This document shows positions 1-1,185 of a stretch of DNA of 64,000 nucleotides, one piece after another. A program made the position numbers and the translations under genes. The stretch comes from Candidatus Poribacteria bacterium. Its GTDB lineage: Bacteria > Poribacteria > WGA-4E > JAJDTR01. The stretch's first letter is position 1; every line of letters starts with the position of its first letter. A model generated the notes under the pieces. The model had not been told where the DNA came from. It saw nothing but the letters and a program-made list of their open reading frames with translations, and did no database searches. Location of the stretch: assembly GCA_028820655.1 (NCBI GenBank), contig JAPPIK010000005.1, positions 1 through 64,000 on the forward strand. The letters run 5' to 3'.

Positions 1-640
1 CTGACAGATTGTGGTACAGATTTCCTTCTCTAAGACTCGTTTTGAAAAAGTGTTACTTGGTAGCGTGCCATTATCCCGGTCGGGATAATTCTTTCAGCAA
101 GTAACACTCTTGTACCGCAAACTGTTAGTTTGCGGATCAAAATCTGACAGATTGTGGTACAGATTTCCTTCTCTAAGACTCGTTTTGAAAAAGTGTTATT
201 TCGTAGCGCCCCATCATTCCTGTCGCGATAATTCTTTCAGCAGGTAACTCGCTTGTACCGCAAACTGTTAGTTTGCGGATCACAATCTAACAGATTGTGC
301 TACAGATTTCCTTCTCTAAGACTCGTTTTGAAAAAGTGTTACTTGAGAGCGTGCCATTATCCCTGTCGGAATGATTCATTCAGCAAGCAACACTCTTGTA
401 CCGCAAACTGTTAGTTTGCGGATCACAATCTAACAGATTGTGCTACAGATTTCCTTCTCTAAGACTCGTTTTGAAAAAGTGTTATTTGGTAGCGCCCCAT
501 TATCCCTGTCGCGATAATTCTTTCAGCAGGTAACTCGCTTGTACCGCAAACTGTTCGTTTGCGATTACAATCCATCAGCGGGACACATTCATATTTCGCT
601 CTATGACTAGCTTTTTGAGAGTGTTACTTCGTAGCGTTCC
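1..640. repeat. Tandem array of a 143-bp hairpin-rich repeat
   Basis: Units start at 1, 144, 287 and 430, so the period is exactly 143 bp. A diverged partial fifth copy runs from about 572 to 640. Each unit holds several inverted repeats. In unit 1 there is an 11-bp outer stem (49-59 with 98-108) around an 8-bp stem (70-77 with 82-89), then an 8-bp stem (115-122 with 128-135). At 281-299 the junction forms another 8-bp stem. Units 1 and 3 resemble each other and units 2 and 4 resemble each other in the segment about 50 to 115 bp into the unit, which suggests duplication of a 286-bp dimer. No plausible ORF crosses the array. The array may extend left of the window. Confidence 0.95.
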
Positions 641-1185
641 TTGGAGAAACCCGATATGTCAATACGCAGAAAAACGAAGTTTCACGAACCTCACGGAACT
701 GACCACATTCTTACTGGAACCCGCGCCACTACGGGATTCCACGCCAATTTGCGCCGCACAAGAAAAACGTCGTTTACAAACCATCAAGGGGCACATACGA
801 TAACCAATAAACCGAACACCCTTAAATATACGCGCGCACAATAGCGCACTAACGTAATACCGGGCATATCCTGCTTGAAGCCGCGTCCGGGGTGCATTAG
901 AGCGCGATTCTCGATTCTGTGCGACGTGTGCGCTATCCTTCGGACTGCACCGTAGGTGATTAACTGACATCAAGCGAACGAATAGATTGATTGACCGATA
1001 GCAGTTTCCGCCGTAGCGATCCCATAGAGATTCTAGTGCGGTGGAAGTCCTATAGAGATCTTTCGTTGTTCCCTACCACCGAGTTGGGAGGATTTGAGCG
1101 CTCGATTGCCTAAGTCCTAGCTCGATTTCTTATTCCACGCAATTCTGATGCGCCAGAAATACCTCAGTCGGGAAAGTGATACCAA
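641..1185. other. Intergenic region without a recognisable gene
   Basis: Short ORFs of 60 to 104 codons exist on both strands. They overlap one another, lack ribosome-binding sites, and have Arg/Cys/Ser-rich compositions typical of chance ORFs. No tRNA, riboswitch or transposon end was recognised. Confidence 0.5.

Follow-up and report, generated by a model that had tools for sequence, protein, structure and literature searches.

The tandem array that opens the window (the whole stretch of 64,000 nucleotides of Candidatus Poribacteria DNA analysed here) belongs to a dispersed, intergenic, non-coding repeat family, here called A, which is nearly genus-restricted and apparently mobile, site-specific and arranged in arrays. 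The reading we prefer, at a probability of about 0.5, is that an array consists of non-autonomous mobile units in tandem, inserted 3' of the motif TTNNNAG by a trans-acting Y1 transposase of the IS200/IS605 type. For a mostly uncultured phylum, this puts on record a repeat family that is both abundant and site-specific and whose insertion sites could be resolved through a congener (genome G001). At the level of titles and abstract openings, the papers listed in literature searches hold no description of such repeats in Poribacteria.

The window array occupies positions 1 to 634 of the plus strand and includes the end of one unit and four units with an A core, the last with a decayed tail. Tandem Repeats Finder reports a period of 143 over positions 4-572 (4.0 copies, 89% matches, 0 indels, score 921), and a decayed fifth copy matches at 79% over 599-640, with a spacing of 142, the array ending at about 634; the original prediction of a 143-bp tandem with four copies and a decayed fifth was thus confirmed. 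The A-B-A-B dimer pattern proposed with it was borne out in modest form: the dimer solution (period 286, 2.0 copies, 94% matches) has the higher score, 1017, and 7 of the 10 sites that split the copies two against two pair copies 1/3 against 2/4 (two others pair 1/2, and one pairs 1/4). Whole-unit identity is 93.0% for copies 1/3, 90.9% for 2/4 and 85.3% for 3/4; the dimer signal is real but only modest, because copies 1/2 are also 91.6% identical. The inverted repeats predicted in each copy are real (arms at 46-59/98-111, 93%, and at 110-123/127-140, 86%), and there is no open reading frame of at least 80 amino acids in 1-650, in keeping with the earlier statement that no ORF explains the array. 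Among named public records, the closest relatives of the KsgA-like gene of this DNA (78%, 50% and 50% identity) are encoded in Candidatus Poribacteria MAGs. The window starts at the first base of contig C46 (draft genome of 5.88 Mb), and the array's left end is therefore missing from the assembly; the array end that was expected to the left was not recovered, as C46 itself starts there and the loci read offer no candidate for its left neighbour. At the same locus in G001 there was no A in the 17 kb read.

Each 143-nt unit is a mosaic of the 59-nt A core, a module B of about 51 nt and a roughly 30-nt tail. The four cores, all HMM matches on the plus strand, lie at 50-108, 193-250, 336-394 and 479-536; the first, also supported by its fold, has the arms GTGTTACTTG/CAAGTAACAC and the inner hairpin ATTATCCC/GGGATAAT. 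Module B, two inverted hairpins with complementary loops, of the CGCAAACTGTTAGTTTGCG and CACAATCTAACAGATTGTG types, follows at 111-161 in unit 1, at 254-304 and 397-447 in units 2 and 3, and as a decayed copy from about 540 in unit 4. The last junction motif, GTGTTACTTCGTAG at 621-634 of the plus strand, is the probable right end of the array according to the right-border profile of 27 arrays. Units have CGCGCCATTATCCC at their left end and TTGRKAG at their right end. Elsewhere in the genome other modules come after the core instead, and core-to-core spacing ranges from 90 to 419 nt (78 intervals), with clusters near 143, 188 and 236.

Module B half-sites are mainly of two stem types (CGCAAAC/GTTTGCG and CACAATC/GATTGTG), and in other families of the order the module stands by itself; it is best regarded as a separate, order-wide module of about 51 nt, similar to a REP doublet. 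The hairpin CCGCAAAC..GTTTGCGG, which the original prediction had offered as a probe for the array, consequently turned out to be unspecific, since it belongs to this module. REP-doublet-like repeats of the B type were seen in many genomes of the order (L064-L072), and exact copies of the 19-mer half-site occur in three IMG/VR contigs (L179-L181), one of them holding three; these contigs are possibly poribacterial viruses or host DNA. Comparison of window 1-640 with phages and plasmids gave no match, and no viral contig holds an exact A 24-mer. Another module, D, of about 35 nt and of the GATCAAGCGAGTGGATAGCGAGTGCGATAGAGATC type (L025-L061, L075, L076), splits the hairpins of several repeat families, among them REP-like ones next to Y1 transposase genes, and also occurs nested within itself.

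In the stretches of the genome that were read, 120 A cores form 42 head-to-tail arrays of 1-7 cores each, a count that covers the window and 37 stretches around clusters of 91 matches and is not the full set. All cores of an array lie on one strand in every one of the 42 arrays. Only 2.9% of array bases fall in open reading frames of at least 150 amino acids, versus 71.8% of the surrounding bases. A census with a 30-nt pattern (at most 3 mismatches; the reversed-pattern control gave 0) found 114 sites in this genome, some of them outside the stretches read, 95 in G001, 9 in genome G014 and none in six others. Among 84 genomes of the phylum, the A core was present in these three under strict filters by which weak copies may be missed. 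The G014 copies are confined to three contigs (C72, C83 and C116; L121-L123), which may be misbinned or an acquired island.

That the tandem is an assembly artefact was suggested by the position of the window array at a contig end, by several other contigs that likewise end in A arrays, and by the identity of window positions ~560-1070 with a stretch of contig C10. This is hardly credible against a family that recurs in two separately assembled genomes, with many arrays inside long contigs and a base-exact empty site. Artefact is refuted for the family, and the repeat is not peculiar to this place; neither of the outcomes that the original prediction had named as fatal to it applies. The copy number seen in the window is that of the assembly and may not be exact. 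A arrays also explain several contig breaks in these assemblies. To the right of the array, window 560-1155 is 97.5% identical to C10 (L041:6357-6954), with no difference over ~560-1070, and 650-981 recurs at 81% on contig C18 (96910-97241), each of these copies lying just 3' of an A array; this flank is either another repeat or a segment that was copied recently. The open frame at 650-981 shows no sign of a gene, its changes being spread 12/12/12 over the codon positions.

The borders of the arrays are sharp. TTNNNAG stands at 22 of the 30 true left edges in this genome and at 15 of 20 in G001, compared with a background of 0.36%. When 40 first units were aligned on the core, there was little conservation before position 7 and a strong TTGRKAG at positions 8-14, whereas in 75 internal units conservation reaches further left. 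On the other side, 27 arrays end in GTGTTACTTGRKAG and the sequence is random immediately beyond; the motif was the criterion by which these arrays were selected, the loss of conservation beyond it was not. Arrays thus begin abruptly right after a chromosomal TTNNNAG, and the units, head to tail, end on the right with a TTGRKAG of their own. A hairpin lies about 6 nt inside the left border; it is present without covariation. Near the right end, only some unit types have an obvious hairpin.

Orthologous places in G001, located by a joined protein query, could be compared for 23 left edges of 22 loci. By eye, 11 of these are colinear and empty in G001 (L025, L028, L033, L035, L037, both L047 arrays, L052, L054, L058, L061), two loci (L044 and L030) have an array in both genomes, and the remaining ten edges are not alignable at the edge. 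At the aligned empty place an exact TTNNNAG is found in five cases (L033, L035, L037, L054, L058) and is absent in six: L061 has ATGATAG, and the other five are loose, shifted or without similarity. In L035 both flanks align, and the array is inserted between TTGGTAG and the next base without duplication. The left and right 7-mers of 21 arrays likewise gave no sign of a target duplication (an agreement of 96 versus a shuffled mean of 101, p = 0.97), and on both grounds a MITE with target duplication was rejected. The non-consensus left copies at L058 (TTTTTAG) and L061 (ATGATAG) resemble the respective empty sites, indicating that the chromosome supplies the left copy and the unit the right one. 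With sites empty in the relative, the A arrays are apparently mobile insertions.

Within an array, cores are more alike than across arrays (0.838 versus 0.810, 0/1000 permutations), and in the orthologous array of G001, L096, three units of 143 nt follow one another at 88-95% identity. Together with the dimer pattern of the window, this suggests that tandem duplication contributed in addition to insertion.

Some features could point to the host: it might keep the array as a structured RNA, a terminator or a protein-binding array, considering that some units have stable hairpins and that some left ends are separated from a start codon by ~10 nt or less. Among four stretches folded as RNA (200 shuffles), window 44-140 has z = -5.6, a value matched by 0/200 shuffles, and z is -4.7 for the A core of copy 1; the same stretch is weaker in copies 2 and 3 (z of about -2.5). 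The named A stems, however, have no covariation beyond shuffles, the RNAalifold consensus of 51 A cores retains only 3 pairs, and there is no Rfam match; structured RNA was rejected on these results, which leave the RNA-structural array of the original prediction unsupported. Gene orientation around the arrays is not uniform either and, given the empty sites in the congener, retention by the host is very improbable; a host function is neither shown nor needed. In both L035 and L054, the upstream gene has the TAG of the target as its stop codon.

An IS200/IS605 layout is suggested because insertion occurs 3' of a short target without duplication and the unit's own right end resembles that target. 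In the general plan of these elements, as outlined in PMC6006769, a conserved target flanks the left end, hairpins are subterminal, and the right end is recognised by its last bases in the same way as the target. A putative Y1 (HUH) transposase of this superfamily, acting in trans, would cut 3' of TTNNNAG, and the same enzyme would also cut 3' of the terminal TTGRKAG of a unit. The TTGRKAG terminus of one unit would then be the landing site for the next, seeding an array, and unequal recombination or slippage could multiply the units, of which the window's dimer pattern would be an example. Small repeats of other kinds, such as module B and CACTCCAGCGGAGTG-type hairpins, would travel along once caught inside units. 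The family would be a concrete case of target-matching ends building arrays, and its target motif can be used to seek the missing enzyme. More speculative, and rather unlikely in our view, is that this amounts to a new array-building route, in which a right terminus that recreates the 7-nt target lets repeated single-strand or recombinase insertion produce head-to-tail mosaics at scattered sites.

The genome has seven Y1_Tnp matches, several of them with other hairpin repeats on their flanks. Of 28 Y1 loci (these 7 and 21 from seven other genomes searched), none carries A and none carries module B; no transposase was found inside or beside an A array, the open frames between neighbouring A arrays at five loci included none recognisable by eye as a transposase, and no guide complementary to TTNNNAG was evident by eye 5' of the left hairpin. 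Array strand shows no bias with respect to local GC skew, a weak proxy for the replication strand, agreeing with it in 17 of 42 arrays. We infer a Y1 transposase as the moving enzyme of A; a site-specific recombinase is possible.

Such a recombinase, of the tyrosine type, would integrate and excise circular units at TTGRKAG, producing gene-less, integron-like arrays. N units bounded by N+1 similar 7-mers, a single orientation and no duplication would all fit, and the genome has phage-integrase-family genes (3 matches above the cut-off). On the other hand, the arrays lie at many scattered sites with no single acceptor, and there is no A core in the stretches around four integrase matches. The attC pattern of integron cassettes is RYYYAAC..GTTRRRY; the borders, compared by eye with this motif, do not have it. 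Overall, we regard this mover as unlikely, though it is the strongest of the competitors to the Y1 transposase.

It is quite improbable that A is a strict REP whose mover is a RAYT protein of its own genome. The palindromic, intergenic, high-copy, mosaic and often tandem character of A, which REPs and BIMEs share (as described in parts of PMC3733652 and PMC8266576), and the existence of Y1_Tnp genes in the genome are consistent with it; but GTAG is not fixed, positions 11-14 being RKAG, and the repeats beside the genome's own Y1 genes are of other kinds, never A. These Y1 genes (L073-L078) have differing REP-like hairpins beside them, such as TGTAGGAGCGACCTCCCGGTCGCGA and AAAGCCCCAGCGGGGCGACAGGTG, and there are probably several REP/RAYT systems in this one genome.

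Compared with known systems, A is closest in layout to the non-autonomous derivatives of IS200/IS605: it inserts 3' of a short target without duplication, the right end of the unit resembles that target, and a hairpin follows shortly inside the left border. It differs from them in a longer and looser target (TTNNNAG), in its head-to-tail arrays, in the lack of a recognised guide, and in that no Y1 parent with these ends was found among the 28 Y1 loci. The label REP/MITE-like given by the original prediction holds for a dispersed, intergenic and non-coding repeat whose sites are empty in a relative, and does not hold for a fixed GTAG, a linked RAYT or a target duplication. With REP, BIME and REPIN elements (whose RAYT is TnpAREP), A shares small size, intergenic position, palindromes, high copy number, mosaic composition and tandem occurrence, and module B looks like a REP doublet; strict REP membership was rejected on the RKAG at 11-14 and the lack, among the Y1 loci examined, of any RAYT gene flanked by A, and the cores of an array share one orientation instead of alternating. 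The MITEs of DDE insertion sequences are likewise short, non-coding, dispersed and gene-free, but A has no target duplication and the borders of its arrays are not mutual inverted repeats. Unlike integrons, A arrays have no cassette genes, no attC motif (by eye) and no single acceptor locus; like integron cassette arrays, they have N units, N+1 similar core sites and one orientation, and if the proposed array-building route were true, such arrays would be integron-like in form, without genes or a dedicated acceptor locus.
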